NCBI GenBank assembly: GCA_014730175.1
Contig: WJIR01000255.1
Span: 1-43,835 of the forward strand
DNA length: 43,835 nt
DNA from: Candidatus Zixiibacteriota bacterium
GTDB taxonomy: Bacteria > Zixibacteria > MSB-5A5 > UM-FILTER-46-8
Direction: 5' to 3'
Part shown: one piece after another, positions 10,638 to 28,957 of the stretch
Position numbering within the stretch: position 1 is the stretch's first letter
Layout: each line of letters starts with the position of its first letter
Notes under the pieces: model-generated
Told to the model about the DNA's origin: nothing
Database searches by the model: none
The model's input: the letters and a program-made list of their open reading frames with translations, nothing else
Translations under genes and position numbers: made by a program

Positions 10638-13600
10638 TTAATCGGCGTATCCGATATAATAGTATCCAGACCAGTAGTAGGGATGGGATCTCCCTGAATT
10701 AGTCATCTCCTGTTTGATATTTAAGATTGCGTTTCCGGAGGGTGTGGTTTCAATGGCTCTTAAGTAGTGTTTTAAGTACAGCCCCTTTTCCAATTCTCTC
10801 TGTTCCCATCGCGGCAGAATGGCTCCTTCAAGTCCACTGCTTAGTAGAATACGCCACAATAGCAGTTTATTGTTCGCAAATTCAGATTCCCGTTTCCAAT
10901 CAAAATTCTCGAGTTGGAAAATCGAAGCGCTATCAGGATACATCTCCAATAATTCTTTAAGCCGCATCCGGGAATTATCCTCCCCCGAAGGATTACTTGA
11001 GAAGTAGAATTCCAGCAAAGGCGCATCGGACTCATTTATCCGAATGTCGGAAACCAGGCAGTTGAGATTTTGAGTGGCGAGTATACTTGAAACATTCTCC
11101 ACTCGTTCGATGGGATATACGGCTCTGGATACCTGCTGACTAACTGCTTTGTCGATGAAATCCACGGAAGCGCCATCTTCGATTTCTTCGGGAGCAATAA
11201 GGTGGAGTGATTCGATAGGTTTATTATTCGAATTAGGTATGAAGAGGTCATAGATAGAGGGGAAAGCGTTAATCTCGAGTTCATTAGTTGGCACGTCGCT
11301 GAATTTAGAAAGTAGGTAGTCGAGGGGGAAATTGACCACCTCACCGATAGGGATAACGTTTAGCTCGCCTGTTTCGGTATCTATTTCCCAATCCCCGAGT
11401 AAAATCGGTTTTGATACTGAGTCCAGACGCTCGGTATTTCCAATCGTTGAGATGGTTGTCACGTATTGTTGGAATATGTTATTAAGGTTATGTTCGAGAA
11501 CTATTTTATATCCCTGAGTACCGGAAGTGTTAACAAGAAATCTATATAGTTCATCGGAAGTCTGATAATAAAGGAGGGTCGGATCTGCATCCAACCGGGC
11601 ATTGAGATCTTCAGAGTTTATATCCGGGACTGTAAGGGCGAGGGCGAGTGGCGGATAGGTCTCCTGTAATCTGGCAGAAGCAAGGATGAATTCCGAATTC
11701 GATTGCTCCATTCGCCGCCTGCATTCCGAAACGGATTCCTCTTCATCGCCTTTTCTCAACCTGTTGCTGCATGCAAAATAAGTGATTCGAGCCTCCTGCA
11801 ATCTTGAGACCAACGTATCGATGGCAGGCTCTGCGAATCTGTAATAGTAGTTCGATAAGAGAGCTGTTTGCCGGTACTGATTAGCTTTTTGGAAACCGAT
11901 CACCGATTCGTTATAATCATTCTGAGCATAATTCGCTTTAGCCAGTAACTCATAAGCTTGCCAGGGATAGTGAGGTAAGCGGGTGCGCATTATCTCTCCA
12001 TTATTAATAATCGGTATTCCGTCCAGTATCTCGGTTGACTGGCTAAGGTATCGGAGGGATGCTTCTTCATTCTCTCTCTGGTAATAGCACTTGGCGAGGA
12101 TATAGAATTGACGCCAGAGCAGTAGCGGGAATTCCGCGATATCAGATTCCTCCAGACTATTTTCGCTCGACTTTATTGCCTGGGAGAAATCGCCAAGCGC
12201 CATCAGCGATGAGGAATAAATCAGGTCCCTTTTAGCTTGCAGGAAAGCCGACCGGGATTTGTCCAGTAATGAATCGAGGCGAGTGAAGGTGTTTTCGAAT
12301 TGCTCGGGATTGCCTGCATTGGCGTAAGCCAATGCTAAGTCCAGTAGCGACTCGATTTTATCATCTTTGTTACCCTCATCGTTCATCTGCGAGATAGCCA
12401 GACGCAAAAACTCTATCGCCTTATCGAATTCGCCCTCCCGTAGATAAAAGCGCCCCATATTATCTGCGAAAACCATTTTGTGAAGAGATGAATTAATTCT
12501 TTCGGCTAATGAATATCCGTTTATCATTATTCGTTCCCCTTCGGTTGAATAACCGGAATATATTTTAATCAAAGCCTTGATGAGTATGGCGTCAAGCTGG
12601 CTATGACTGTTTCCCAGTTTTTTGTTGAATTCGATTGCAAGGTCAGCATGCGCATTTGCCGAATCAAAATCGCCTATAATCCACTCTGCCGAAGCCAATG
12701 ACCGGGAGCATTCAGCCAGACTCCCGGAATTATTCTCATCATACAGCGCAAATGCCCGGGAAAGGAATGACCTGGCATCGAAGTACCGGTTCTGTTGAAA
12801 ATATGCCCAGCCCAGAAGCTGGTATGCTTTTGCGGTCTCAGCCGACGAGACGGATTCAAAGGATCCAACGGACTCTTCCAGCGCGGAAGCGGCATCCCTG
12901 AATCTTTCCAGGTTGATCAATATCCGCCCCCTGATATACATGGCGGTCCCGTACTCCTCGGGATAGCGTACGTTGTCGGTGTATGCCAGAGAGGTATCGA
13001 TTGCGGAAAGCGCTTCTCGGAATTTACCGCCGGAATCAAGCAGTGATGCGATATTCCTGAATCCTTCGGCGGCTCGTGCCGAATCGCTCATCGCACCGGT
13101 GAGGTCCATGTATTGCCGCTGATAATCGGCGGCATGCTCATAATCACCAGCCTGCGAAGCGATATTCCTGAGCAATAGAATAGCCTCGGCGCTTTTTTCT
13201 CTATTATTATCCTCCCTTGCTAATTTAAGCGTCTCCTTCTGATATTCCTCGGCTATAGAATACTCCCCCGCGCGGAATGCTGACAGAACTATACGCTGCA
13301 GAATTATCTCGATTTTCGACTTGTCGATTCCCAATAAGGAAGCCAAACTGTGAGCTTCACGGAAATACGAAAGGGCATCCTGCCAGTCGCTTTGATTGGC
13401 AGCTAATATCCCTTTTTGCATAATGATCCCGAAATTATGTTGAGCGAAGGATTTTTCCTCCTGCCGATTCATCCCTTTGTATCCAATCTGCTCAAATGCT
13501 GCCCAATGGTACGTATTCGGATATGCCTTCTTCAACCGCGCTCTGCTCTGCCCCAACGCGGACGCTACATCGTAATCATCAAGAAGGGGAATAAAGGTAT

Positions 13601-16600
13601 TCAAGAACTCACTAAAAACCGAATCGAGAATATCCCAGCGAAGAAAAATAACCGAAGGCGAACCGGCATAGTTGAAAGTTGCCTGCAGCACAGGCATTAG
13701 TTCCGCAAGATCCTCAATTTTATTAGAGCGAAGGATTACCGTTTTGCTTTTTAGATTATAGGTGAAAAGCCGGCTCAATTTCGGAGGATTGTCTATCGGG
13801 ACATCAAGCCGGGAGCCCAAGGGATAACCTGCCTGCTGTTTTATTCCTTGCTCGAATATGACAACGCCGTATTCCGATAACGATTTGGTTAAACTATCCG
13901 GAATTGCTTCGGTTATATCCAAACCGATTTCGTCATCACCCGGTAAATCGGACAGCCTAATGGTTCCGCTTGCGGGTATCCTGCGGTTCTCATAACCGTT
14001 TATGATCATCTCCACGCTGGACGATATCGAATAGTCACATATATCGTTTAACGCAATATACCCGTTATTCAGAAGGGCAAATGGTATCTCATAAAGTTCA
14101 CCGTCCGGGATTATTGTCACATATCCGGAATTCTCCAGTCCTTCCCGAAAATCGCTGAAGAGGGTTTCGAAAAGGAATTCCTGCGCTTCCTGAGAAGTGA
14201 CAACCTCATCAATAGCGGCTTGTAGAGAGTCCATATCGATAGGCTTAAAAATAAACTTCCAGTCCTGATCATTTATCAGCCATATTCCAACTCCATCCCG
14301 AAATAGATAATAATCCAGGACTATCTCACCCCCGGAGAATACTTCCTTGAGTTTATCCCACCTGGGCTTCGAGGCGTAAACCATCGGGGATAAGGCAGGG
14401 AATTCCTCCTGTATCCTATCCAGAGAATTAACGAGTTCCGTGCGGATATCCTCGAGTTCAACGTTCAGGGAATCCGCCATTCTCTTTGATTGTATATCCT
14501 CCTGTGTTTGCAGGGAGCGGATTGTCGAGGTCAGGGAATCAACCATTTCATCCAGATATTTGACCTTTAGCCAGTAAACTTTATGTAATTCGCTGCGGAA
14601 TTCCCTTAACGGGAAACGGGATATCTCGCCCACCAGTTTCATGGAACGCAGCAATTCAATCGAATTTAAGGCTTCATCGCTTCTTCCTGATTCGATCAGG
14701 ATTCTAAGGTAATGCTTAAAACTCTCGTCAATCTCATCGGTTTGCAGGTAGGAGCCTAACGGGTTGCGTTCACCTCTCAACGTCCGCAGGTTGTTCACTG
14801 CGTCGTTCATACTTGCCTCGATAACGTTGATGTTGGAATCGAGTAATCCCTCCATCAATGAAATCCTCACCAGTATATCGCCGAAACCATTCTCTATGGC
14901 AATATCCTCGGTGGTTGCGAGTATTTCGGCAAGCTCGGAGTAGTGTCCGAATTCCAGATACATAGCCGCCAAACTCAAATTGATGGCACAGTAAGCATGT
15001 TCATCAAGAATTATCCCTGCGATGTTCAGGGCTTCTTTATAGTAATTTTCAGCCAGTTCTAATTCCGCTCCGGTTTGCTGGAATTGGTCAAGGTAGGTTG
15101 AAATTGCATCCCGATAGCTATCCGCAGAATTTAGTTGATTATCAATAGTAATCATTCGTTCTTCGAGGTATTTCTGATATCGAATGAAATACCAGTTCCC
15201 CGAAGCAGCGTAGAGATACATCTTTAATGCCGATACGGTACCCGGTAATTGCTGCAAAGTTCGGCTCATTAACTCTTCATGAGAAACGACCTCCTCAGGC
15301 AGCATTTGATAGATATATTCCGGAAATGACAAAAGTAGGTTGGTGAGATTAACAACGCCAGTTCCGATCCCGGATACGAGCTCCGCATCCTGCGATAATT
15401 CAATCGACTCCCGATAATAGGCAATGGCGGAATCTGGATTGCCGGCTTGAGTGTATATGTTTCCGATTTTATTGGCAATAATCGCCGCTGACCTTTTATC
15501 CCCCGATTTCTCTGCTAATACCATTTTCCTGCGAAGGCTCGTGGTTGCTTTTTCGATTTCACCCAGCCGCATTTCACTGACACCCTCAAGCTCCCTGAGC
15601 AGGCGGCGGTTTTCGTTGCGGGGAAAGCCTCTGGGATAGAATGAACCGCCAATTTTAAATTCCTCCATGGAGGCGAGTTGGAAATCAAAGGGTAAGAACA
15701 CCAACCTGCCCAGAAGTAAGCCGGAGGTTTGCAGGTCATCGGAAGTACCCAAAGCCGAATATACCGAATCGGATTCAGTAGCATAAGAAATGGATGGATT
15801 CGGTTCTTCATCCATGAAATTTACTACTGCCAACGCCTTAAGCATCTCCGCTTCACCTTTTAAATCTACCCTGGCTTTGTATATCTCCAGCGCCATTCGG
15901 AAATAACGACGGGTTTCATCGTAATCCTCATCCAGCATGTAGACGAATCCCAGCTTCTTCATTAATCGAAGCTTCAGTTCGGTATCCGCTCTTTCCTCAG
16001 CGATCTCCAGCAACTTTCCGAAACTGGAGGAAGCGATATCCAGGCTATCTGTCTGCAATGCGCTCTCCCCGTAATTCCATAGATAATCCACCAACAGCTC
16101 CTCATCAGCTTGCCGGATTATATAATCATAACAATCATCATAGTAGGTGAAAGCATGTTGATACTGATTTATGAAATAATACCCGGATGCCATATTCAAC
16201 TTAAGATGGAATTCCTGCTGAGGAGGTGCATCCTTCGAAAGGTAATTGAGTCCCATCAGCGATATATCGATCGCCCTTTCGGAAAAACCACCCCCGTCCT
16301 GATCCACTTGACCTCGCTCGAACTCAAGATAGGTTTTACCCAGCGCTATATAAGGTAGTATCCATTCAAAATATTCGTCATTCAGATTCTCCAGTAAATC
16401 CCGAGCTTCTCTCAGTTCGTCTTCTTTACGGTGCTTAATATAACGTTCCAGGGCAAGCAGGCTTTTGCCGTAGGTTATACCTCGTTGGTTCTCAATGGAA
16501 TCGGGTATACTTCGATAAAAGTCACGGGCATAATCAAGGTCGCCGATACGAGAACAACTCCTGATGAATCCCCAATTGCAGTCGCCGCGTTCGGTAAAAT

Positions 16601-18587
16601 CGGAGATCAGCTCTTCGAAGATAGCGCGTGATTTATGAATATCCCCCACAAAAAACATAGAATCAGCCATGCTGATATAGTAGCGGTATAAAGCCTTACC
16701 CGCCTCTCGCTGAATATCTTCGTTGATCGCATCGGACTTATGTAGCGAGTCCAAAACCGCCACTGCTTCGTCGGTTTCGCCGACGAGGAGGTTAAGCCTT
16801 GCCGATTGTAGGATAGCCTGTTGAGCATATTGCGCAAAATCATCGTATGAGATCTGAACCAGCCGGTATTGGTCAACCGCGCTGAGATATTTACCGCCGG
16901 CTTCCAATGACTCCGCGATATAGTACTCTCCCGCCACCTGTAACCGCCGAATATCCTCAAACCTCCCCAGCAAATTGCGCACACCTTCGATACGTACGGT
17001 TAATGGTAGTTTGTCATACTGGTTCAACGAATAGGTCACAGCGCTGTCTGCGTAATCGTTCTCTGACGGATACTGTGATAACACCCGGATATAGTTGGAT
17101 GCATTAGATATCCGGTCATCGGGATTGAGTGTTCCGTAATTATCGCCTAACCTTAGCAAAGCCTTACAGCCATCATCGGTTACTCCCGGGAAACTATCGA
17201 TAATGGTTGTAAAAGCGCGCATCGCCTCCGCGAATTTACCATACCGCGACAACAATAGCCCCTCCACATAGTAGGTTTTTGCTAAAACCTCAGGTATTTC
17301 GGCTCCGCGTTCTCTAATTTTGTTCAGCGAAGTAAGCGCCTTCCTCAGCGCAGACCTCCTGTCCAGTTCCCATTGATTGTTAGCGGTTAGTTCGATGCTG
17401 TATATCTGAGCTATCAGAGATTGCGCCGGATCGGCCTGTAGCTTCTCAATGCTTCGCCAGGATAGTTCCGCTTCCCGGCTGAATCCCAATCGAAGGTATA
17501 GCTCGCCGCACTTAAGAAGAGCATCGGCTGCCCGTTCACTCGATGGATAAAGCGCGGCATAGCTTTCGAGATATTGGATAGCTGCGTATGTAGCTTGCTC
17601 ATCCGATGAACTTGACAACCGAAGCCCGTATTGATATAGAGAGTCGGGGATTTCCAATATCCGCTTCAACGAGCCGAAATCCATCCTCGCCAGGTCCGTA
17701 TTTCCGCCTTCCTCATGTACAAAATACAGCCATTTGGAGTTGTTATCCAGACGGGGATAATAAACACTTTGCGCATTGAACAGCAGCTTAATTTTCTTGC
17801 CGGATTCAGGGTAGATGGCCGAAATGGTCGGTGTATCATTTATAGTCAATATTCCATCTCTATCTGTATCCACATCGTATTTCGTAAACAGAATCAAATC
17901 GCCATCAGGTGAAAAGGAGGGATTCATAACAGGTCCGTTTCCGGTTTCAGGATATTCTATGTTTCCGCTGGTATCGACAATTGCCAAACGGTTTTCGGCT
18001 CCTAATCCGGTCATATCCAGCGCCACATAAGCTAATCTATCACCGCGTGGAGACCATGCCGGATTCATAGCTCCGCCGTTTGTCAGCCTTCGGATAATAT
18101 CACCATTGGTTTTCGCGATAAATATTTCCGGATAGCCGGTTTCCCTATCCGAACAAAAGGCAAGGATTTTCCCATCGGGTGATACTACCGGGTCTGTGTC
18201 GTAACCCTGATATTTTGTCAGACGTTTGGTTGAACCGATATCAGTGTCCATCCTGTATATATCTCCGAGAGCATCATCTCGGCGCGATACGAAGAATATC
18301 TCGCTGTTATCCTTACCGTAGGCGGGGCTGAAATCAGCCGAGGAATGCGAAGTCAGCTTAACAGGTAAACCACGTGTAGTAGGTTTGAGGTAAATATTGA
18401 AATCACCATCGCGAAAGGTGGTGTAAGCTATCCACTGACCATCCGAAGATACAGCCGGTTCAAAATCGATGTCGGGGTGGCCGGTCAGCTTTATTACCGT
18501 TGGGATTGGCGCCGAAAAACCTTGGGAACCTAACCACAACAGCGAGACGAGAATTAGCGTGAAGATTTTATTGAGGCTTTTTTTCAT
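10638..18587 (-). CDS. Giant exported TolB-propeller/TPR protein with two degenerate CHAT domains
   Basis: A 2649-residue protein, the largest in the window. Residues 1-26 form a signal peptide (KIFTLILVSLLWLG). Residues ~30-330 are PD40/TolB-type blades (FEPAVSSDGQWIAYTT, DPVVSPDGKILAFCSD, NPSFSPDGDLILFTK). Two long TPR stretches cover ~340-1330 and ~1720-2290. Each is followed by a CHAT-like domain, at ~1395-1700 (IVLDYYLF, VTIIPDGELYEIPFALLNN, end YHWAAFEQIG) and ~2310-2649 (LLYYQTSDELYRFLV, end HPYYWSGYYYIGY). CHAT proteases need His (HFATHG-like) and Cys (LSACET-like). Here those places read VVIFEQGIKQQ and VILRSNKIED in the first copy, and NCLVSDIRIN and SIFQLENFDW in the second, so neither looks catalytic. 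It starts 7 bases after the DUF1318 gene and is last in the operon. A periplasmic scaffold role is inferred, with no known function. Confidence 0.85.
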   Translation of the reverse strand: MKKSLNKIFTLILVSLLWLGSQGFSAPIPTVIKLTGHPDIDFEPAVSSDGQWIAYTTFRDGDFNIYLKPTTRGLPVKLTSHSSADFSPAYGKDNSEIFFVSRRDDALGDIYRMDTDIGSTKRLTKYQGYDTDPVVSPDGKILAFCSDRETGYPEIFIAKTNGDIIRRLTNGGAMNPAWSPRGDRLAYVALDMTGLGAENRLAIVDTSGNIEYPETGNGPVMNPSFSPDGDLILFTKYDVDTDRDGILTINDTPTISAIYPESGKKIKLLFNAQSVYYPRLDNNSKWLYFVHEEGGNTDLARMDFGSLKRILEIPDSLYQYGLRLSSSSDEQATYAAIQYLESYAALYPSSERAADALLKCGELYLRLGFSREAELSWRSIEKLQADPAQSLIAQIYSIELTANNQWELDRRSALRKALTSLNKIRERGAEIPEVLAKTYYVEGLLLSRYGKFAEAMRAFTTIIDSFPGVTDDGCKALLRLGDNYGTLNPDDRISNASNYIRVLSQYPSENDYADSAVTYSLNQYDKLPLTVRIEGVRNLLGRFEDIRRLQVAGEYYIAESLEAGGKYLSAVDQYRLVQISYDDFAQYAQQAILQSARLNLLVGETDEAVAVLDSLHKSDAINEDIQREAGKALYRYYISMADSMFFVGDIHKSRAIFEELISDFTERGDCNWGFIRSCSRIGDLDYARDFYRSIPDSIENQRGITYGKSLLALERYIKHRKEDELREARDLLENLNDEYFEWILPYIALGKTYLEFERGQVDQDGGGFSERAIDISLMGLNYLSKDAPPQQEFHLKLNMASGYYFINQYQHAFTYYDDCYDYIIRQADEELLVDYLWNYGESALQTDSLDIASSSFGKLLEIAEERADTELKLRLMKKLGFVYMLDEDYDETRRYFRMALEIYKARVDLKGEAEMLKALAVVNFMDEEPNPSISYATESDSVYSALGTSDDLQTSGLLLGRLVFLPFDFQLASMEEFKIGGSFYPRGFPRNENRRLLRELEGVSEMRLGEIEKATTSLRRKMVLAEKSGDKRSAAIIANKIGNIYTQAGNPDSAIAYYRESIELSQDAELVSGIGTGVVNLTNLLLSFPEYIYQMLPEEVVSHEELMSRTLQQLPGTVSALKMYLYAASGNWYFIRYQKYLEERMITIDNQLNSADSYRDAISTYLDQFQQTGAELELAENYYKEALNIAGIILDEHAYCAINLSLAAMYLEFGHYSELAEILATTEDIAIENGFGDILVRISLMEGLLDSNINVIEASMNDAVNNLRTLRGERNPLGSYLQTDEIDESFKHYLRILIESGRSDEALNSIELLRSMKLVGEISRFPLREFRSELHKVYWLKVKYLDEMVDSLTSTIRSLQTQEDIQSKRMADSLNVELEDIRTELVNSLDRIQEEFPALSPMVYASKPRWDKLKEVFSGGEIVLDYYLFRDGVGIWLINDQDWKFIFKPIDMDSLQAAIDEVVTSQEAQEFLFETLFSDFREGLENSGYVTIIPDGELYEIPFALLNNGYIALNDICDYSISSSVEMIINGYENRRIPASGTIRLSDLPGDDEIGLDITEAIPDSLTKSLSEYGVVIFEQGIKQQAGYPLGSRLDVPIDNPPKLSRLFTYNLKSKTVILRSNKIEDLAELMPVLQATFNYAGSPSVIFLRWDILDSVFSEFLNTFIPLLDDYDVASALGQSRARLKKAYPNTYHWAAFEQIGYKGMNRQEEKSFAQHNFGIIMQKGILAANQSDWQDALSYFREAHSLASLLGIDKSKIEIILQRIVLSAFRAGEYSIAEEYQKETLKLAREDNNREKSAEAILLLRNIASQAGDYEHAADYQRQYMDLTGAMSDSARAAEGFRNIASLLDSGGKFREALSAIDTSLAYTDNVRYPEEYGTAMYIRGRILINLERFRDAASALEESVGSFESVSSAETAKAYQLLGWAYFQQNRYFDARSFLSRAFALYDENNSGSLAECSRSLASAEWIIGDFDSANAHADLAIEFNKKLGNSHSQLDAILIKALIKIYSGYSTEGERIMINGYSLAERINSSLHKMVFADNMGRFYLREGEFDKAIEFLRLAISQMNDEGNKDDKIESLLDLALAYANAGNPEQFENTFTRLDSLLDKSRSAFLQAKRDLIYSSSLMALGDFSQAIKSSENSLEESDIAEFPLLLWRQFYILAKCYYQRENEEASLRYLSQSTEILDGIPIINNGEIMRTRLPHYPWQAYELLAKANYAQNDYNESVIGFQKANQYRQTALLSNYYYRFAEPAIDTLVSRLQEARITYFACSNRLRKGDEEESVSECRRRMEQSNSEFILASARLQETYPPLALALTVPDINSEDLNARLDADPTLLYYQTSDELYRFLVNTSGTQGYKIVLEHNLNNIFQQYVTTISTIGNTERLDSVSKPILLGDWEIDTETGELNVIPIGEVVNFPLDYLLSKFSDVPTNELEINAFPSIYDLFIPNSNNKPIESLHLIAPEEIEDGASVDFIDKAVSQQVSRAVYPIERVENVSSILATQNLNCLVSDIRINESDAPLLEFYFSSNPSGEDNSRMRLKELLEMYPDSASIFQLENFDWKRESEFANNKLLLWRILLSSGLEGAILPRWEQRELEKGLYLKHYLRAIETTPSGNAILNIKQEMTNSGRSHPYYWSGYYYIGYAD

Positions 18588-18594
18588 GAGCGCA

Positions 18595-19200
18595 TTACTG
18601 CTTGACCACCCATTCGCCGTTGTCCAGTTGAATCATCCTACCAGGTTTTTCCTCAGCGATATTTCTCTGGCTGAACACCCGCTCTATCTCCGGGAGGTTC
18701 TCCTCGGTGAGATCAGCTCTTAATCTGATAACATGCATCATAATTATCCGCCTGCCTTCGTTTTCCTCGGCGACGATCTGATTGAGGATAGTTTGATCGG
18801 GCGGTGCAAGTTTGGAGGTTTTCTCCTCGAAGATATGAAGGTATCCCTCATTGTTTTCCCCTATCACCTGCTGGTCTTTGAACCGGTTTATATCATCTAA
18901 GTTGAAGCGATGATTAGCTAATGCTGTCAGGTATTCACGTCTTCCTGCGGGAACCCGTTCGACCCGTTCGATGGTAGCTTCACTGATACGAGTTGTATCA
19001 GTAGCTAATTCCTCACCGGCGTAATATATTCCACCGCTTACGGCGGGTAGAAATACCGCATCCTCCTGCAGTTCATACTCCCCCAGCAGTTGTCTTTCCA
19101 GCACCGTCTTCTCACCGGTAACCGTGATCTCGGGAGGTTTGATAGTGCAGGAGCTCAAGCCAGCAATAATTAAAAAGAATAAAATTGAATATATGCGCAT
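18595..19200 (-). CDS. DUF1318 (YdbL-like) lipoprotein
   Basis: A 201-residue protein. I place the start at ATG 19200, with GAGGAG 6 bases before it. An in-frame start at 19365 would lie inside the upstream gene. The N-terminus YSILFFLIIAGLSSC is a lipoprotein signal with Cys18 as lipid site. The C-terminal half is DUF1318-like: RFNLDDINRFKDQQVIGENNEGYL, the IVAEENEGRRIIM helix and the ending GRMIQLDNGEWVVKQ, which parallels the GxYVQxxNGxWxxK end of Escherichia coli YdbL. In E. coli, YdbL is encoded with YdbH and YnbE, which act in phospholipid movement across the envelope. The gene follows a YdbH/AsmA-like gene by 10 bases, which strengthens the call. The ~65 residues after the Cys are family-specific. 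Confidence 0.8.
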   Translation of the reverse strand: MRIYSILFFLIIAGLSSCTIKPPEITVTGEKTVLERQLLGEYELQEDAVFLPAVSGGIYYAGEELATDTTRISEATIERVERVPAGRREYLTALANHRFNLDDINRFKDQQVIGENNEGYLHIFEEKTSKLAPPDQTILNQIVAEENEGRRIIMMHVIRLRADLTEENLPEIERVFSQRNIAEEKPGRMIQLDNGEWVVKQ

Positions 19201-19210
19201 AGATAACTCC

Positions 19211-22200
19211 TCATTGTTCCTCTTCAATGGGCGTTGCCGCCGCCGCTTTAAGCATAGCATCCAGTTGCTTTCGGTCGTACTCCACAGGCATGGTGACCAC
19301 GCCGATACGGAGATATTTGGCGAAAAACGGTTGATCCATATCGATAGACGGGTTGATATTTCCATGTTTTATTTTCATAGATAGGCTTTTCGGTTGGTAA
19401 CTGATATCCAGAAACAACAGCCTTCTATCCATCAGTTTGCGTGTTTCCGCAATACTGATATCGCTTCCGGTGGGATCAAGGAAATCCAGAAGTTTCTTAG
19501 TTGCTCTGGGACCGATTTTGGTGATATTCACCTGCCCCTCAAGCTCGAAATCCGTTTCGGGGTCGACAATCCCTCTTCCAACCAATGAAAGATCACCGCT
19601 GATATCCGCCCTTTCAGATACTTTATCGCTTCCAGCCAGACGATCGAAATTTATTCCGGAAGCCTGAATGTTGGCAGCATATCTCAAACTATCCATCTCC
19701 ATAACCTCCGCGGCGAAATCCAGACTCCGTAAATCCAGATAGAAATCACCCAGCAGATTTCCACCGTATATGTCGGAATAGAGCCTATGTCCTATTATCT
19801 GCCCCTGATTGATTTCCAAAATCATGCTAAAATCATCGATGTGTATTCTCCCCGCGGTCAATCTGCGGAACTTTATGTTCCCCTCCGATCCGATCCTCCT
19901 GAAATACTTATCCTGCTCATAGTTCAGGATATTCAATTCCGGAAAGTAATCCACATCACCGAGTAATCGCATATTCGCCAGCGAAATAGATTGCTCAAAA
20001 GGTACAGAGCCTGAGATGGATTGTATAGTGAAAAACTCCGGCGATATTACGGAAAGGAGTATCGGATTAAAATATCCGCGCAGATTCATCAGGCTGTCAT
20101 CCATGGTGATCTCCATTGAACCGTCAAACCTGCCGGTCATCCCCACTCCTTTCATCACCTCGATAGTATCTGCCGCGCGGAATTCCATATTGCTGCTTAA
20201 AGTCATAGTTGGATTGTCACTCACAAGATAACTGCCCCGCGCATTCAGCTTTAGTTTGTGAGAATTTATATTGAGCGATGCATCGTTCCAGGTAATGGTG
20301 GAATCATAATATCCGAAAAATGTCTCGCCGGAAATATCCCCCAACGGCAGGAGAAGCGTATCTTCCAATGCCAACTGCTCGGAGTTAAACTGCGATCTAC
20401 CACGAAACCTATTCTCTGCATAGGTGAAATCGGTTTTCAGTTCCGTATTGTTAGCTGCAAAGGCATATAACTCCACCGATAACGTATCGATTACCGATTT
20501 CAAATTCCCTTCGGCTTTTGTCTCCGATTCGCCCTCTTCATTCATGACAGCTTCAATATCCAGGTCCATTGAACTTTCGCCGGTGAATTCAACCGCTCCC
20601 AGGGAATCCCTCAGCTCGGTTGGTATGAAATCCTCCAGGAGGTGATGATAAACAGTAGCATCAAGCTCAGTATTAATCTTCGTAATTTCGCCGATAGTCA
20701 GCTCTCCGCTGCCGGTGCAAGTAAAATACTCCTCGGAATCCAGACTAAAATTCAACAAATTATAGCTCAAGAAATCCTCGCTGTAATTGATATCTGCACC
20801 AAGGTTAAACACCATCTCAGGTATGAAAAGGTTATCTTCCTCGAGCTGCAGCATGACTTCAGTTATCGAAGCCTGCCCGGTTACGTTTATTCTATCTTTC
20901 AGGGAAGAAGCATGCATATTGATCGACCATTTACCATCATACTCCATATAAGGAATAGCGCTCAATTGCGCTTCCGGTAAGGATATTGATAAATCGATCG
21001 TCCCTTGCGGAGGGATTCCATTGTTTATCTCTATATTGCCGGTGAGAGTGTCTCCGAAAAGTCCATTTAGTGATACCTGCCCGTGTACCATTACCGGCTG
21101 ATAAAGCGAGTCCAGCGCACCATCGAATTCCATGCTGGTGGATGGTATCACCACGGTGGTAGTTTCATCGAGCGCATAGAAAATCGAATCGGTATCGCCT
21201 GTCATATCGAAGTCATAACCCGCATCCATTCCGAACAGATCGCCTTTGAAATTCGAAGACAGGTTTAAGTTGCGCAGCTCAATTCCGTACTCCGAACTCG
21301 CCAGATTAATATCCTCCAATGTAATCTCCCCGGTAGTATTCATTCCCGGGAATTCCGGACCGCTGTTAAGTTGTACATTTCTGGCATTTATCCGTCCGCT
21401 TAACGCTATTCCCAGCATTAGAGACTCAATAAGCGGCTGAAATTCTGAGAAATCTATTTGTGCCGATGAAACGGATAACTCCATAGGAAACATCGTGTCG
21501 CTTTCGGTGATTCTCATGCTGAAATCAGCATGTAGCAATTCGTTCCCGTTTAGTACGGTTTCGATAGAGGAGATCGCCAATTCCCCCGTGTTTATACTGT
21601 AACTGACACCGGATCTATAAAGGAATTCGGATTGGTAATCATAGCCGTAAGCGGAAATACGAATCGGTTTCAATTCAGAAAAGATGGTTCCTTCGATTTC
21701 ATTGTCCGGGGATATTTCCAGGGAAACATCGAGATTCAGATTGGCAACTGCAGAAAACTCACCAAGCGTATCGGAATAGGAGTAAGCGAAATCTATTCCA
21801 TCCGGTTCGGATGAATAAATTTTCATCTTCCCTGAAACCGAGTCAATCTCCGCAATCTCCATATCCGAAACGGTTAGATATAACCCGTCGAGGAAAATGC
21901 TCTGCGCGCCTGTTAAAGATATTGATGCTTTATTGATATTGAAATCCCTTAATTCGACGGTTATCGGTAGTTCTGTTGCCGCGGTCGTGTCTGTGGTGAC
22001 GTCAACGAGGGTCGTATCTTCGGTCATTTTTATCCAGGAGAGGTCTAATTCGCCATCAGGCTTTGTCTTGAGGTTCACAACGGGATTATCAAGAGTCACA
22101 CCGGTTATCCGTAACTCTTTGGAGAGAATCTTACTAAGGCTGTAGTCGACTACGATATTACTGCACCCCAAAAGAGTATCATCGCTGTCAATAACGTAGA

Positions 22201-22432
22201 CGCTATCCAAAGCTATTGAGGAAAAAACACTGATATTCAGATCCGCTATTTTTAACTCCGCATCCAGATAATCCGATGCCATGCCCATCGCCATCTCGCG
22301 AAGCTTTTCATCATCAAAATAAAGACGCAATCCGATACTCAGGATTACAATAGCAACGATGAAGGCTAAACCCGAAATAAGTAGAATTTTCAATACCTTT
22401 TTGGGCAATGATTGAGAACTACGCATTTCCAT
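19211..22432 (-). CDS. AsmA/YdbH-like envelope protein, putative lipid-transfer bridge
   Basis: About 1073 residues from ATG 22432. GTG 22450 and ATG 22426 are alternative starts, and GTG 22450 would overlap a predicted -10 box. One N-terminal membrane helix (VLKILLISGLAFIVAIVILSIGL) is followed by the AsmA-family opening YLDAELKIADLNISVFSSIALDSVYV. Nearly 900 residues of alternating beta-strand then follow, with the repeat-beta-groove look of AsmA, TamB and YdbH. The C-terminus (DISGDLSLVGRGIVD...VNITKIG...DRRLLFLDISYQPKSLSMKIKHG) is typical of YdbH-type ends. E. coli YdbH, TamB and YhdP are redundant carriers of phospholipid between inner and outer membrane. The adjacent DUF1318 gene makes YdbH the best relative. 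The tie to a giant TPR/CHAT-like protein is unusual. Homology is by pattern, so the exact subfamily is uncertain. Confidence 0.8.
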   Translation of the reverse strand: MEMRSSQSLPKKVLKILLISGLAFIVAIVILSIGLRLYFDDEKLREMAMGMASDYLDAELKIADLNISVFSSIALDSVYVIDSDDTLLGCSNIVVDYSLSKILSKELRITGVTLDNPVVNLKTKPDGELDLSWIKMTEDTTLVDVTTDTTAATELPITVELRDFNINKASISLTGAQSIFLDGLYLTVSDMEIAEIDSVSGKMKIYSSEPDGIDFAYSYSDTLGEFSAVANLNLDVSLEISPDNEIEGTIFSELKPIRISAYGYDYQSEFLYRSGVSYSINTGELAISSIETVLNGNELLHADFSMRITESDTMFPMELSVSSAQIDFSEFQPLIESLMLGIALSGRINARNVQLNSGPEFPGMNTTGEITLEDINLASSEYGIELRNLNLSSNFKGDLFGMDAGYDFDMTGDTDSIFYALDETTTVVIPSTSMEFDGALDSLYQPVMVHGQVSLNGLFGDTLTGNIEINNGIPPQGTIDLSISLPEAQLSAIPYMEYDGKWSINMHASSLKDRINVTGQASITEVMLQLEEDNLFIPEMVFNLGADINYSEDFLSYNLLNFSLDSEEYFTCTGSGELTIGEITKINTELDATVYHHLLEDFIPTELRDSLGAVEFTGESSMDLDIEAVMNEEGESETKAEGNLKSVIDTLSVELYAFAANNTELKTDFTYAENRFRGRSQFNSEQLALEDTLLLPLGDISGETFFGYYDSTITWNDASLNINSHKLKLNARGSYLVSDNPTMTLSSNMEFRAADTIEVMKGVGMTGRFDGSMEITMDDSLMNLRGYFNPILLSVISPEFFTIQSISGSVPFEQSISLANMRLLGDVDYFPELNILNYEQDKYFRRIGSEGNIKFRRLTAGRIHIDDFSMILEINQGQIIGHRLYSDIYGGNLLGDFYLDLRSLDFAAEVMEMDSLRYAANIQASGINFDRLAGSDKVSERADISGDLSLVGRGIVDPETDFELEGQVNITKIGPRATKKLLDFLDPTGSDISIAETRKLMDRRLLFLDISYQPKSLSMKIKHGNINPSIDMDQPFFAKYLRIGVVTMPVEYDRKQLDAMLKAAAATPIEEEQ

Positions 22433-22440
22433 CAGGCTAA

Positions 22441-22469
22441 AGATAACCACCCCAAAATATGAATGTCAA
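22441..22469 (-). promoter_or_regulatory. Possible promoter of the YdbH-like/DUF1318/giant operon
   Basis: On the minus strand TTGACA (complement of 22464-22469) and TTATCT (complement of 22441-22446) are 17 bases apart. The -35 box is a perfect consensus and the -10 matches 4 of 6. Transcription would begin near 22434, next to ATG 22432, giving a leaderless or nearly leaderless mRNA. This speaks against the upstream GTG start at 22450. Confidence 0.45.
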
Positions 22470-22641: not shown

Positions 22642-23481
22642 TCAGTAATCCTCCCCGCGCTTGTCCGCCTCCGCAAGGCTAAAAGCGGGGGCTGGATTAC
22701 CGTAACAATAAAGACATCCATGCGGACATGAATACCATTGACCGATGTCATACGACTTTATACAATTGCAGTATTCTCTCTGGGAACGATCTTTGGACCG
22801 AGAAGCCGGTAGTTGAAGCGGGTGAATTGACTTTAGAATCTGCGAATCAATACAACCCCGGTTTGTCAAATTTGGTGAAACACAGCAGCTTAATAGTATA
22901 TTCCTTTCCCATGTCATTTTAGACAATCCATCACGGATAAACTCTTCCGCTTCCTGTTTGTAGTGGTCGTGAAATCTCAGCCCATGTTTTTTTAAGCGTA
23001 ATTCAGCTTTTTTGTAGTCTTGGGCAATCGATGTGATAAACCTGCTTATACGATTAGACCTCATATTCTCCAATATTTCGATTGCTGTTTTTTCTGTTAT
23101 ATTTGAAACTTCATAAGTTTTCTCAGGGTTAATAATATGTATTAGCGGGTCATAACGAATTGCGATATGCTCAGCGGTCTTCAAGCGTTCGACCAATGCT
23201 GGCAGCATTTTAAACATGTCATCTAAGTTGGGAACATTCGGCTCTAAAATGGAACCGCCTAAACCGGTTAGCGTAAGTAGTAGATAAATGTTATCGAATC
23301 TTCCCAGCTCCCGATTCAGTTGGTCGTTCGTAAGAATGTTTAAAGGATTTTTCGTCCACAGAACAATGGTGTGGATATCTTCCGGCTCTAATTTCGACAG
23401 TGATTGACAAAGATAGTCAGGATAATGCGCAACTAAATCGCATCGGCGGCTGGCTGAGATTACATTTCGATATTTTCGCAT
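22642..23481 (-). CDS. DUF1848 family protein, radical-SAM-like
   Basis: A 279-residue protein of the DUF1848 family. The opening VISASRRCDLVAHYPDYL corresponds to the family's ISASRRTDIPAFY motif. VLWTKNP, LLLTLTG and YDPLIHI in the first half are also characteristic. The C-terminal signature is CNCIKSYDIGQWYSCPHGCLYCYGN, given here only as its Cys pattern: C-x-C, then C-x3-C-x2-C. This resembles a radical SAM cluster site placed at the C-terminus. Function is not established. The gene is transcribed alone, divergent from the metalloprotease, and has only a weak SD. Canonical CxxxCxxC SAM binding at the end of the chain would be unusual, so whether it uses SAM is open. Confidence 0.88.
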   Translation of the reverse strand: MRKYRNVISASRRCDLVAHYPDYLCQSLSKLEPEDIHTIVLWTKNPLNILTNDQLNRELGRFDNIYLLLTLTGLGGSILEPNVPNLDDMFKMLPALVERLKTAEHIAIRYDPLIHIINPEKTYEVSNITEKTAIEILENMRSNRISRFITSIAQDYKKAELRLKKHGLRFHDHYKQEAEEFIRDGLSKMTWERNILLSCCVSPNLTNRGCIDSQILKSIHPLQLPASRSKDRSQREYCNCIKSYDIGQWYSCPHGCLYCYGNPAPAFSLAEADKRGEDY

Positions 23482-23522
23482 TCAATGTCGCTAATTGAAG
23501 GTAACTGTCATCAGTTTCGCAC

Positions 23523-23550
23523 TTGCTAATTTAGGAAATTTTATTATAAT
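23523..23550 (+). promoter_or_regulatory. Sigma70-type promoter of the metalloprotease gene
   Basis: TTGCTA at 23523-23528 and a perfect TATAAT at 23545-23550 are 16 bases apart. The predicted transcript starts near 23557. It would exclude the in-frame ATG at 23495 and fits the GTG start at 23594, which has AGGAG 6-7 bases upstream. Confidence 0.6.
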
Positions 23551-23593
23551 TGGAAAAGAAATTATTAATCCCATCCATAACAAGGAGAAAATC

Positions 23594-26500
23594 GTGTACA
23601 AAAAGATTCTGCTTTCCTTATTGATGATTTTGTTGATATCATCACACTCCTACAGTTTTGCACCAAAGGACGGCACAGACTATTCAATTGATCTTACAGG
23701 AACGGATATGCCGATACCGGATAATCCTGAAATTCAGACAATGATCCGGAATTCCTCTAACTGGGAGAATTTTGTCAGAAACAATGGGGATTGGAAGGTG
23801 ACCTTCGATGAGATATCGCAAGTCCCCGAGAACGCTTTCGGACACCCCATTTCCTTAGAGGGCGTCGGATTTGTTAATGCTAACAACATAGAAGATGTTT
23901 CACTTACCTATGCTGAGTATCTTTCTGATGTTACCGGAACATCTGCTGATGATTTAGGGCTGGGAAAAGCCAACCTGCTTGGTTTTAAATGGTTTGTAAC
24001 TCTTGATCAGTATTACCAGGATGTCCCGGTATATGATCGCCGACTGCGATTGAGAATAACCGATGACGGCAATCTGTTTTTCTTCGGATCTTCAACCATC
24101 CCGGATTTATCGGTCAATGTAACACCGTCATTGTCGGAAAAGGAAGCGCTCTCCATAGGCGTCTCAGGCATCGGTTACGATGAACAACGAGACAGTTATG
24201 AAAACAAAGGGCTCTGGATACTGCCGATAATTCAGGCCGATAAATATGTCGGGAAGCTCTGCTACAGGTTCCTGGTAAATGTTAAAGATCCGAGAGGCAG
24301 ATACGAGATATTCGTTGATGCCCATTCCGGCAGAACGCTTCTCCGCTTTGATACCATCCGTTATGTGGATATAACCGGTACCGTTAGCGGAATGATACAG
24401 CACGACACACCATTCGATGAATGGGTAGAAGAACCGTTTAAAGACCTGCGGGTTACGGTTAACGGCACCGATGATGCGATTACCGATGAAAACGGCGATT
24501 TTGTAATTCCGTGGGGCGGTACCGAACCGGTTGATCTGGAAGCGGAACTCAAGGGTCCTTTCAGCCGAGTCCTTAATCAGGCGGGCGCTGATGCCAGAAT
24601 TGATGAAGAAGTAACTCCCGGGGATGACATTATTTTAGTCTGGGATGATGATAACTCTCATCCGGCGGAAAGGGATGGATTCTATCACCATATTATTTCC
24701 CACAGCGAGATTAAGATAATCGATCCCGGATTGACATCCCTGGATTACGACATGTACTGCAGGGTTAACATCAATGACGCATGCAATGCATATTATGATT
24801 ACAACGGTATAAATTTCTATATTGCCGCCGGAGGCTGTTCCAATACGGCACAGATAGCCGATGTGGTATATCATGAATATGGTCACGGGGTCACCCACAG
24901 AACTTATGAGCCTTACAGTCCCAACGGCGCGCAGCATGAGGGATGGTCGGACTACTACGCAGCCACCATCACCGATCAGCCGCTCATAGGACGCGGGTTT
25001 TATTCCAACAATCCCAACAGCTATCTGCGGACCTGCGATAACGACAATCGCTACCCCGAGGATTGGATCGGACAGGTTCATCACGATGGTATGATTATGT
25101 CCGGCGCTTTGTGGCATTTACGCCAGGATCTCAATGATCGGGTGCTGGTTGATTCCCTGTTCCATTATGCTCGTTACGGGTATTCCACCAATTACGAAGA
25201 TTACTTTTATGATGTATTGGTAGTGGATGATGATGATGGCAATCTGGAGAATGGCACCCCCCACGCCGCGGAGATTTATTATAACTTCGGTAACCGGCAC
25301 GGCATAGGCCCCGGCGTTTATGTGGAAGTAACGCATACGCCGCTTCAGGATAGCGAAGATACCCAGAATCCTATACCGGTAGATGCCGAATTCTTCGGTA
25401 TATTCGATCTTAATCCGGACTCGATAATCTGCTTCTATGATAACGGTTCAGGTTTCGTACCGTTGACCATGACCCACACCGAAGCGGATACTTACTACAC
25501 TGAGATACCGGCTCAGAATTCGGGAACGACAGTCAACTATTACCTGCTTGGTGTTGATGAAATCGGAGTGCGCGGACTTGCTCCGGATAACGCTCCGGAT
25601 GAAACCTACAGTTTCTATGTCGGTCCCGATGTTATTCCGCCGGCATTCGAGCTGATTTCCGCTCCGGATGAGACTATCGACCTGTTCGGACCTTACGGTC
25701 CTTTCGTTATCACGGCTACCGACGTGAATGATATAGATCCGAATTCGGTTTATATTCATTACAAAATCAATGACGGGAGCGAGCAGGAACCGGTTCTGAT
25801 GCTTCAGACCGGTAATCCCGACGAATACCTCGCTGATATTGATACCGGTCAGCAATTGGAAATGGGCGATGTTATCAACTTTTATTTCACTGCTACCGAT
25901 ATGGCGAATGATCCCAATGATGGACGTTTCCCGGACGAGGGCTTTTTCACGCTGACGATGACCCGCGATGAACTGGTCGATGGTTTCGAGAACGGCACGG
26001 ACAAATGGGATCTCGGTACCGGTTGGGTGCTTGACGAAACTCAACATTACGAGGGCGACTTCTCCATTACCGACAGTGAGGATAATTACGGCAACAACGA
26101 GAACAACCCGTTGACGTTGCTCGATGGTTATAACATGACGCCTTTTGAACATGGAAGTATCAGCTTCATGTACAAAGCCGTGCTGCTGGAAGGCGATTAC
26201 TGCGCGGTTGAGGTTACCGATGACGGCGGTAATACTTTTACCGAACTGGGAAGGATCACCGGTGTAAACAACTGGCAGCAGGGACAGTATTCGCTTGATG
26301 AATTCGTTGGCGTCGGTAATGAAAACGTGCAGTTAGTATTCCGAATGGTAACCGACGAGGAAGGCACATCGTTTGGAGTATTCATCGACAATGTCCGTAT
26401 CTCGACTTTCCCGGTAGCGGATGTAGACGATGAAGATAATATTAATACTCCAAAACGATTCGCATTGGATCAGAACTACCCGAATCCTTTCAATCCGGCA

Positions 26501-26731
26501 ACTTCGATATCATACAGCCTGGACAGACAGGACAAGGTATCTTTGGAGATATATAACATCTTGGGACAGAAGGTGCGCACATTTGATGAAGGAATCAAAT
26601 CGGTCGGTTCGCACCTGATATTCTGGGATGGAAGCGACGAAAACGGTAAAGCGGTGGCATCCGGTGTGTATTTCTATCGCCTGCAGGCAGGTGAAAGAAC
26701 GGCAACCAAGCGGATGCTGTTGTTGAAGTAA
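23594..26731 (+). CDS. Secreted thermolysin/fungalysin-like metalloprotease with sorting tail
   Basis: 1045 residues from GTG 23594, chosen because AGGAG precedes it, a good promoter lies just upstream, and it puts the signal peptide (KKILLSLLMILLISSHSYS) at the N-terminus. Residues ~60-270 look like an FTP/PepSY-type inhibitory propeptide. The zinc site is HEYGHGVTH (427-435) with the third ligand in EGWSDYYAA (Glu449), a gluzincin pattern as in families M4 and M36. GNLENGTPHAAEIYYNFGNRHG closes the peptidase domain. Ig-like and jelly-roll-like domains follow. Residues ~955-1045 form a type IX-like sorting tail (RFALDQNYPNPFNP, LEIYNILGQKV, ASGVYFYRL, KRMLLLK). The protein is probably secreted or surface-bound and degrades protein outside the cell. 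Exact peptidase family remains open. Confidence 0.93.
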   Translation: MYKKILLSLLMILLISSHSYSFAPKDGTDYSIDLTGTDMPIPDNPEIQTMIRNSSNWENFVRNNGDWKVTFDEISQVPENAFGHPISLEGVGFVNANNIEDVSLTYAEYLSDVTGTSADDLGLGKANLLGFKWFVTLDQYYQDVPVYDRRLRLRITDDGNLFFFGSSTIPDLSVNVTPSLSEKEALSIGVSGIGYDEQRDSYENKGLWILPIIQADKYVGKLCYRFLVNVKDPRGRYEIFVDAHSGRTLLRFDTIRYVDITGTVSGMIQHDTPFDEWVEEPFKDLRVTVNGTDDAITDENGDFVIPWGGTEPVDLEAELKGPFSRVLNQAGADARIDEEVTPGDDIILVWDDDNSHPAERDGFYHHIISHSEIKIIDPGLTSLDYDMYCRVNINDACNAYYDYNGINFYIAAGGCSNTAQIADVVYHEYGHGVTHRTYEPYSPNGAQHEGWSDYYAATITDQPLIGRGFYSNNPNSYLRTCDNDNRYPEDWIGQVHHDGMIMSGALWHLRQDLNDRVLVDSLFHYARYGYSTNYEDYFYDVLVVDDDDGNLENGTPHAAEIYYNFGNRHGIGPGVYVEVTHTPLQDSEDTQNPIPVDAEFFGIFDLNPDSIICFYDNGSGFVPLTMTHTEADTYYTEIPAQNSGTTVNYYLLGVDEIGVRGLAPDNAPDETYSFYVGPDVIPPAFELISAPDETIDLFGPYGPFVITATDVNDIDPNSVYIHYKINDGSEQEPVLMLQTGNPDEYLADIDTGQQLEMGDVINFYFTATDMANDPNDGRFPDEGFFTLTMTRDELVDGFENGTDKWDLGTGWVLDETQHYEGDFSITDSEDNYGNNENNPLTLLDGYNMTPFEHGSISFMYKAVLLEGDYCAVEVTDDGGNTFTELGRITGVNNWQQGQYSLDEFVGVGNENVQLVFRMVTDEEGTSFGVFIDNVRISTFPVADVDDEDNINTPKRFALDQNYPNPFNPATSISYSLDRQDKVSLEIYNILGQKVRTFDEGIKSVGSHLIFWDGSDENGKAVASGVYFYRLQAGERTATKRMLLLK

Positions 26732-26938: not shown

Positions 26939-28957
26939 CTATTTTAAAAGCGTCATCCGTCCGGTTATAACCTCATCGCCAAAAGTAAGCTTATATAAAT
27001 ATACCCCGCTGGAATGTTCGGATGCATCCCAACTGCAAGTATGTTTACCCAATTCCCTGAATCCTTCGACAATCGTTGCCACCTTTTGACCCAGTAAGTT
27101 GAACACCTCCAGAGAGATATCTCCATCGGTACGTAAGTTAAGGCTGATTCGAGTCGTGGAATTAAATGGGTTTGGGTGAATATTAACAAGACGGTTCGAC
27201 GACTTAACCTCCACGCTTCTTCCAAAAGTTTGCGGTATCGCTTCTACAATCAGACTACTTGGGAAATAATCGTGCTTATAGTAATCACTTTGAGCATCCT
27301 CGGTAATAAAAAAAGGTTCCATCCAGGTTTTCCCATTATTAAAACTAATTAGGTCGATAATTTCATAATTCTGGCTATGAGTCCAAAAGGAATTCGTGGA
27401 TACGAGAAAATCGGTGTCTGCCGATGTCACAGCGCATTGCTGAGCTCCTGACCAACCGAGCGGAACATTGTATCTCTGATTCCAAATATTAGAAGGCCGC
27501 CCTTTTAAAATGCTAATATCTCCAAGCAGGTACTTAGTGCCACAATCCGACCCATGACAGATGCCTACAATTGCGAATGGTCCATGTTCATCTTCGCCCA
27601 TATCAATATCCGCATACATGGATGGTACCTCGGATATGGCATCGGTTATCGGCGTCCAGTTAGTACCGCCATCATATGAAGAAGTCATCTCCAGATACCA
27701 GTTTTTAAATCCAGAGCATTTAACCTTATATGTCTCCCAGCATACAAGTATAACGCTGTCTTTTGCAGTAATGCGAGGTGTCTTCAATAATTGGGAATCG
27801 CTACATTGAACACGCATCCTTTGCGACCAGATTCCGTTTTGATAAATGCCGCAGACAACAGCTCTATCATCTTCGCACCAAACTGAATACACCTTGCCAT
27901 TATCCAATGTGGTAAAATCGGGATAACTGCAATTCGCTTCCGGATCGGACACCGAACTACCCCCTCCCTTTTGGGGTAACCAACGCTCTATCTCCGGATT
28001 TTTCAACCATTCATATCTTATTTTGGAAGTGCGTGCATGAGGAGCTTTAAGACCCAGTAAATGAGCGAATGTATGTGCGAAATCAGTTTGATATACAGCA
28101 TCGTCCACAACCAGACCGTTGCGGAAATCGGGTCCCCATAACAGTCCAGCGACATGACGGCAACCGTCACAATCGCATCCGTGACCGGCGATACCATTAT
28201 TCACTCCATCGGTATGTCTTCCGTGATCGCTGGTGATGAGGACATTGGTTTTATTCCGGTACTTGGGATGATTAGGAATGTAATCATTCAGAATTACCCA
28301 TGTGATAGAATCAACGATTTCGATTTTCCTATTATACTCGATAATTCCCGAATCGGGATTCTCCGGATCAATTTTATGTCCGTAAGTGTCGACCTTGTGA
28401 AAATCAACATAGAACATATCCGGTTGATACTCATCCAGTACAGGTTTAATAACCTGTTCCCAAAGTTCTTCATCAGGCATTTCCAATATCTTCCGCGCCG
28501 CATGGATTGAAACGGACGGATCCGAATCGGGGTAATCGGGATGACGGCTGTATCCCCAAGACCAATCATTAGCGCAGTTTCCGAATACCCAGCTCAATAC
28601 GCTATCCTGCGGCGATCCCCCTCTTTCCCTAACCAATGTTTCCATAAGCGATGGAAGGTAATGAATAGCATAAGAAGATCCCATCTGCGAAAAGTGGTTG
28701 GGGCAATACTGGGGATTACCCGTGTGGATGTTGGCATGCCCCGGGCTTGTAAAAGTATGCCAGGCATTATTCAGATTCGTGAAGAATATCCCCTGTTGGG
28801 ATAAGGAATCCACCAGGAATTTCGGGATGGAGTCGTCAATGGCGTCATATCTCATCCCATCCCAGTTAATGATAAATAAATTCTCGCCCTCATAAGCCCA
28901 CGTAGATGAGTAACACAGGATCAGAATGAGAAAGCTAATCAGTATTGATTTCTTCAT
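26939..28957 (-). CDS. Secreted alkaline-phosphatase-superfamily hydrolase with sorting tail
   Basis: 672 residues. The start ATG 28957 has GGAGG about 7 bases upstream. A signal peptide covers residues 1-21. Residues ~25-320 are an alkaline phosphatase/phosphodiesterase fold: IINWDG with metal ligand Asp33, the nucleophile region TFTSPGHANIHTG with probable Thr70, DFHKVDTYGH with Asp190 and His194, and SDHGRH with Asp244 and His245. An unusual Cys-rich insert HGCDCDGCRH follows. Residues ~340-580 look like sialidase/BNR-type beta-propeller blades (TSSYDGGTNWTPITD, SFNNGKTWMEPF). The end is a sorting tail (NIHPNPFNSTTRIS, LEVFNLLGQKV, SGVYLYKL, GRMTLLK). Probably a surface phosphomonoesterase or phosphodiesterase, with unknown substrate. 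Its start overlaps the upstream 168-residue gene by 23 bases. Confidence 0.88.
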   Translation of the reverse strand: MKKSILISFLILILCYSSTWAYEGENLFIINWDGMRYDAIDDSIPKFLVDSLSQQGIFFTNLNNAWHTFTSPGHANIHTGNPQYCPNHFSQMGSSYAIHYLPSLMETLVRERGGSPQDSVLSWVFGNCANDWSWGYSRHPDYPDSDPSVSIHAARKILEMPDEELWEQVIKPVLDEYQPDMFYVDFHKVDTYGHKIDPENPDSGIIEYNRKIEIVDSITWVILNDYIPNHPKYRNKTNVLITSDHGRHTDGVNNGIAGHGCDCDGCRHVAGLLWGPDFRNGLVVDDAVYQTDFAHTFAHLLGLKAPHARTSKIRYEWLKNPEIERWLPQKGGGSSVSDPEANCSYPDFTTLDNGKVYSVWCEDDRAVVCGIYQNGIWSQRMRVQCSDSQLLKTPRITAKDSVILVCWETYKVKCSGFKNWYLEMTSSYDGGTNWTPITDAISEVPSMYADIDMGEDEHGPFAIVGICHGSDCGTKYLLGDISILKGRPSNIWNQRYNVPLGWSGAQQCAVTSADTDFLVSTNSFWTHSQNYEIIDLISFNNGKTWMEPFFITEDAQSDYYKHDYFPSSLIVEAIPQTFGRSVEVKSSNRLVNIHPNPFNSTTRISLNLRTDGDISLEVFNLLGQKVATIVEGFRELGKHTCSWDASEHSSGVYLYKLTFGDEVITGRMTLLK

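Follow-up and report, generated by a model that had tools for sequence, protein, structure and literature searches.

A giant exported protein of a Candidatus Zixiibacteriota bacterium carries two domains of a protease family, both apparently without catalytic residues, and raises the question of what such a protein does. Its gene lies in a 43,835-nucleotide stretch of DNA (GenBank assembly GCA_014730175.1, contig WJIR01000255.1), the whole of which is called the window here. We propose that the giant is the third part of an envelope unit and serves, in the periplasm, as scaffold or sensor for a lipid bridge of YdbH/YnbE/YdbL-like type from the inner to the outer membrane, and assign this reading a probability of roughly 55%.

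AsmA-family proteins are periplasmic tubes anchored in the inner membrane (PMC8593681). In Escherichia coli, YdbH, YhdP, and TamB are redundant and jointly essential for outer-membrane lipid homeostasis, and a plasmid-borne ydbH-ynbE-ydbL locus lets a tamB yhdP mutant grow again on agar with bile salts (PMC8593681). The locus functions in phospholipid homeostasis (PMC8593681, PMC11784454), and YdbH has the outer-membrane lipoprotein YnbE as its partner (PMC11784454, PMC12045153). Partners of lipid bridges of the AsmA/YdbL family are largely unknown (PMC12977461).

Domain layout and orthologues

The giant is encoded at 10638–18587 on the minus strand, as are all of its features below, and is 2649 aa long (open reading frame and homology). 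Its N-terminus, MKKSLNKIFTLILVSLLWLGSQGFSA (18510–18587), reads by eye as a Sec-type signal peptide region without a lipobox. A TolB-like PD40 beta-propeller follows (residues 32–315; 17643–18494), assigned from profile matches: residues 36–238 match the TolB model TIGR02800 at an E value of 9e-39, and PD40 is matched as well. The propeller is thus homologous to that of TolB in Tol-Pal, but the giant differs from TolB itself, scoring 133.6 bits against an equivalog cut-off of 343.15 for TIGR02800 and having no tol genes near. Shorter, separate TolB-like proteins are encoded in the same genome. Within the propeller, residues 240–251 form a predicted EF-hand-like calcium loop, DTDRDGILTIND (17835–17870), picked out as a motif by eye; its D240, T241, G245, and D251 are invariant across seven orthologues. 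Profile matches place a first TPR region at residues 316–1100 (15288–17642) and a second at residues 1718–2210 (11958–13436). Pseudo-CHAT1 spans residues 1396–1705 (13473–14402) and pseudo-CHAT2 residues 2331–2649 (10641–11597), with the C-terminal end HPYYWSGYYYIG. The order given in the initial annotation, a signal peptide and a TolB-type propeller followed by two TPR stretches that each end in a CHAT, is borne out by the reading frame and the profile matches, and its view of the protein as an exported tandem pseudo-CHAT on such a propeller is supported.

Orthologues of 2465–2750 aa occur in further genera and families at 19–45% identity, so the giant is neither a chance open reading frame nor a recent fusion. 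The orthologue of the nearest named relative (G003, PFXJ01000024.1) is 45% identical to the window copy over its full length. In genome G128, the giant (L070, L071) is in two pieces that lie far apart on the single contig of the assembly, one of them by an N run; this is probably a scaffolding error. The propeller is the most conserved domain of the giant and CHAT2 the least, as would be expected of a platform for binding whose CHATs are under relaxed constraint.

CHAT homology and dyad loss

Window CHAT1 matches Pfam PF12770 at 36.7 bits (cut-off 24), and CHAT1 matched this model in all five orthologues tested, at best with an E value of 2.8e-28. Window CHAT2 has no match to Pfam CHAT, which is matched by CHAT2 in six of seven aligned members (best 1.3e-21). 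Profile comparison aligned CHAT2 with the CHAT domains of the window's own genome at 98% probability over 258 columns, CHAT1 with the same domains at 96% over its last 89 columns, and CHAT1 with CHAT2 at 98% over 315 columns. These matches identify CHAT1 and CHAT2 as true CHAT homologues and members of one old, conserved family. AlphaFold models built from two-row alignments had a low pLDDT of 49.5 for CHAT1 (residues 1290–1720) and 31.8 for CHAT2 (residues 2270–2649), and the assignment of the fold therefore rests on sequence homology. A Foldseek search with the CHAT1 model of pLDDT 49.5 returned nothing significant, with Craspase 7xsq at rank 5 (E 0.11), and PDB profile searches with the CHAT1 and CHAT2 alignments gave no real match.

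The initial annotation had read FEQG and RSN in CHAT1, and SDI and LEN in CHAT2, at the His and Cys places. The alignment agrees: these places hold F1578-E-Q-G and R1620-S-N1622 in CHAT1, and S2513-D-I and L2559-E-N in CHAT2. The only His and Cys residues within the window domains, C1517 and H1694 in CHAT1 and H2366, H2462, C2510, H2607, and H2635 in CHAT2, sit off the dyad places. As a control, the genome's other CHAT proteins, seven in number, all retain both residues (e.g., HLATHGFF and LSACETG). An alignment of homologues at the His and Cys columns had been proposed as a check; none of the orthologues aligned at both places has a complete dyad, and no aligned orthologue has a His at the expected place. 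An HMM built from intact CHATs matches the giant's domains only at either end and leaves out the central part, where the dyad belongs.

Relics of the active site are found in CHAT2 of some orthologues, where the placement of single residues hinges on the alignment. G005 has YLHLATPG in place of the VLHLATHG of active CHATs, a change of His to Pro, and G012 has VVCET in place of LSACET, without the His. G019 retains ACT and G128 ACM at or near the catalytic Cys place, and ICQ in G001 is a possible further Cys there. As aligned, the loss of the dyad is family-wide, with a Cys surviving at or near its CHAT2 place in three to four orthologues. Because of the relics in G005 and G012, protease activity is taken to have been lost from an active ancestor; in the proposed reading, the giant's CHATs would descend from an active exported TPR-CHAT protease. 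Since the residues at the dyad places differ among orthologues, an alternative binding site in the CHATs cannot be named.

Proteins of the presumed ancestral kind are present in the same genome. Six further TPR-CHAT proteins (L083–L088) all have His and Cys, and most have a signal peptide or a hydrophobic N-terminal segment. Like the giant, they combine such an N-terminus with TPRs and a C-terminal CHAT; unlike the giant, they are 900–1035 aa long, with a single intact CHAT and no propeller seen. Exported TPR-CHATs, at least five in number, are ordinary in this genome, and the bacterium seems from these sequences to export several active CHAT proteases. The giant's ancestor was likely an exported TPR-CHAT of this type. 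On the contig of one of the six (L087; G000, C100), 12 kb off the exported TPR-CHAT gene, a 593-aa product open at the contig end has an intact CHAT and an ATPase-like region.

Gene unit and distribution

The giant is the last gene of a three-gene unit, in the order AsmA-like protein, DUF1318 lipoprotein, giant. The AsmA-like protein (19211–22450, minus strand; start at GTG 22450 or a later ATG) is about 1080 aa long and has an N-terminal membrane helix. It is followed after 10 bases by a YdbL-like DUF1318 lipoprotein of about 200 aa (18595–19200, minus strand) with the lipobox SSC-TIKPPE, and after a further 7 bases by the giant. The C-terminal half of the lipoprotein scored 43 against E. coli YdbL (20 shuffles, at most 16). 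Its similarity to E. coli YnbE is confined to the lipobox region (score 24, shuffles up to 14), and no Pfam match of YnbE type was found. The AsmA-like protein scored 16 in a profile comparison with E. coli YdbH, below shuffles that reached 21, and Pfam YdbH (PF11739) listed one orthologue, below cut-off, and not the window copy; these comparisons do not identify it as YdbH itself.

Among 133 Zixibacteria genomes, the giant is present in nine. The same nine came back with the lipoprotein profile, with the DUF1318 family PF07027, for which E. coli served as positive control, and with the AsmA-like protein matched over its full length; elsewhere, only the first 130–250 or so residues of the AsmA-like protein match. 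LptD is present in 125 of the 133. In eight of nine carriers, lptD directly precedes the unit and shares its strand, and where the intervening gene is visible it is HU; contig breaks in two of these (G003 and G126) were bridged by inference. The gene ftsK lies downstream of the unit in six of nine, and the order lptD-HU-AsmA-DUF1318-giant(-ftsK) holds on one strand wherever contigs permit. Two unit-less relatives have lptD-HU-ftsK (G018) and lptD-ftsK (G020). In another genome without the unit (G036), L079 (12617–14104, minus strand) encodes a 495-aa product between HU and ftsK that is unlike the three unit proteins.

The window's own genome has lptD-HU on another contig, and its complete unit lies between a DUF1848 gene and queH-ruvB-ruvA. 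The DUF1848 gene (22642–23481, minus strand) immediately precedes the AsmA-like gene and so occupies the place of HU and lptD in other carriers. An LptD tree with 25 proteins, only 16 of them from non-carriers, placed the carriers in three groups, and its well-supported branches force at least three changes of unit state. Because the nine carriers are identical for all three genes and the unit changed state at least three times on this tree, the genes are gained or lost together.

Proposed role and alternatives

By analogy with E. coli YdbH-YnbE-YdbL, the task of the unit would be transport of lipid (or LPS). The AsmA-like protein would be the bridge, spanning the periplasm from the inner membrane, and the DUF1318 lipoprotein would be its partner, probably at the outer membrane. 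The giant would couple or position these two as a periplasmic scaffold or sensor, its propeller with the putative calcium loop and its TPRs binding partners, and the pseudo-CHATs, their His/Cys dyad gone, would act only as folded binding modules. Both the outer-membrane location of the lipoprotein and the scaffold or sensor role of the giant are inferred. The loss of both active sites and the constant company of two outer-membrane building proteins suggest a former protease turned structural part of a lipid-transport machine. The initial annotation had put forward an envelope protein with a structural or sensing role; the operon with AsmA-like and DUF1318 genes, usually behind lptD, sharpens that direction, short of proof.

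The position of the unit allows another task, LPS export or LptD assembly in place of phospholipids, in which the giant would aid LptD folding or docking of the Lpt bridge. Location right behind lptD on the same strand in eight of nine carriers, with HU between where seen, favors it, yet 125 of 133 genomes have LptD without needing the unit, the unit is apart from lptD in the window's genome, and the partner types point to AsmA/YdbL systems; we consider this task unlikely. Far less credible, and nearly negligible, is a defense or signaling TPR-CHAT protein that lies here by chance. TPR-CHAT proteins such as Csx29 do act in CRISPR defense (PMC10028731, PMC9729208), but the giant has a signal peptide and dead dyads, is linked one to one with two envelope proteins in three clades, and matches PADLOC models only as generic TPR. 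The defense framing of the initial annotation falls with that PADLOC result and with the neighbors, which are envelope-biogenesis and housekeeping genes.

The domains themselves leave two further alternatives to a non-catalytic binding role. We give little credence to a giant that is still an enzyme, with a His or other residue from elsewhere completing the Cys site, at least where CHAT2 keeps its Cys, or with a new active site. The Cys at or near its CHAT2 place in G012 (VCET), G019 (ACT), G128 (ACM), and G001 (ICQ) would suit such an enzyme; however, the aligned orthologues are without His at the expected place, window CHAT2 is without Cys there, the dyad-carrying middle is unmatched by the intact-CHAT HMM, and no domain of the giant is less conserved than CHAT2. 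Hardly more probable is it that the CHATs are decaying remnants without a role and that only propeller and TPRs work. The conservation ranking, with the propeller at its top and CHAT2 at its bottom, and the barely recognizable CHAT1 of family f10 and CHAT2 of G126 are consistent with decay. Against it, both CHATs are full length and in frame in families f1 and f3, CHAT1 identity within f1 is 43%, on par with the protein average of 41%, and a C-terminal HPYYW element persists in most orthologues.

Relation to known systems

The scaffold or sensor reading places the unit beside E. coli YdbH-YnbE-YdbL, where adjoining genes likewise encode an inner-membrane protein of the AsmA family, a lipoprotein, and a DUF1318 domain. 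It differs in that DUF1318 here lies within the lipoprotein, the AsmA-like protein cannot be equated with YdbH on the evidence, and the 2649-aa giant is absent from the E. coli operon. Like TPR-CHAT proteases such as Csx29 of Craspase (CHAT family PF12770), the giant has TPRs that lead into a CHAT at the C-terminus. Unlike them, it is exported, has tandem CHATs that have lost the dyad and a propeller in front, and is encoded in an envelope operon, not a CRISPR locus; no CRISPR effector genes were found among the window proteins scanned.

The system is best filed as an AsmA/YdbL-type envelope system with a giant pseudoprotease added. Literature searches found no described exported pseudo-CHAT, and neither the propeller-TPR-pseudoCHAT-TPR-pseudoCHAT layout nor its constant association with AsmA and DUF1318 genes was found described; no paper was found that contradicts the earlier statement that no system with this layout is known. 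It is a tentative possibility, somewhat short of even odds, that AsmA-like protein, DUF1318 lipoprotein, and giant form a class of bridge between the membranes that has not been described before, with inactive domains of the caspase fold recruited to a structural or regulatory part in outer-membrane lipid transport, possibly in response to calcium. If the proposed role is true, a caspase-like protease fold has been repurposed as a non-catalytic envelope part, and AsmA/YdbL lipid bridges gain a giant obligate partner. The strict co-occurrence of the three genes defines a concrete, testable complex.

Two other window proteins share a type IX secretion/FlgD-Ig-like C-terminal tail. One (23495–26731, plus strand) has weak metallopeptidase (M36/M4) matches, and the other (26939–28957, minus strand) is phosphodiesterase-like.
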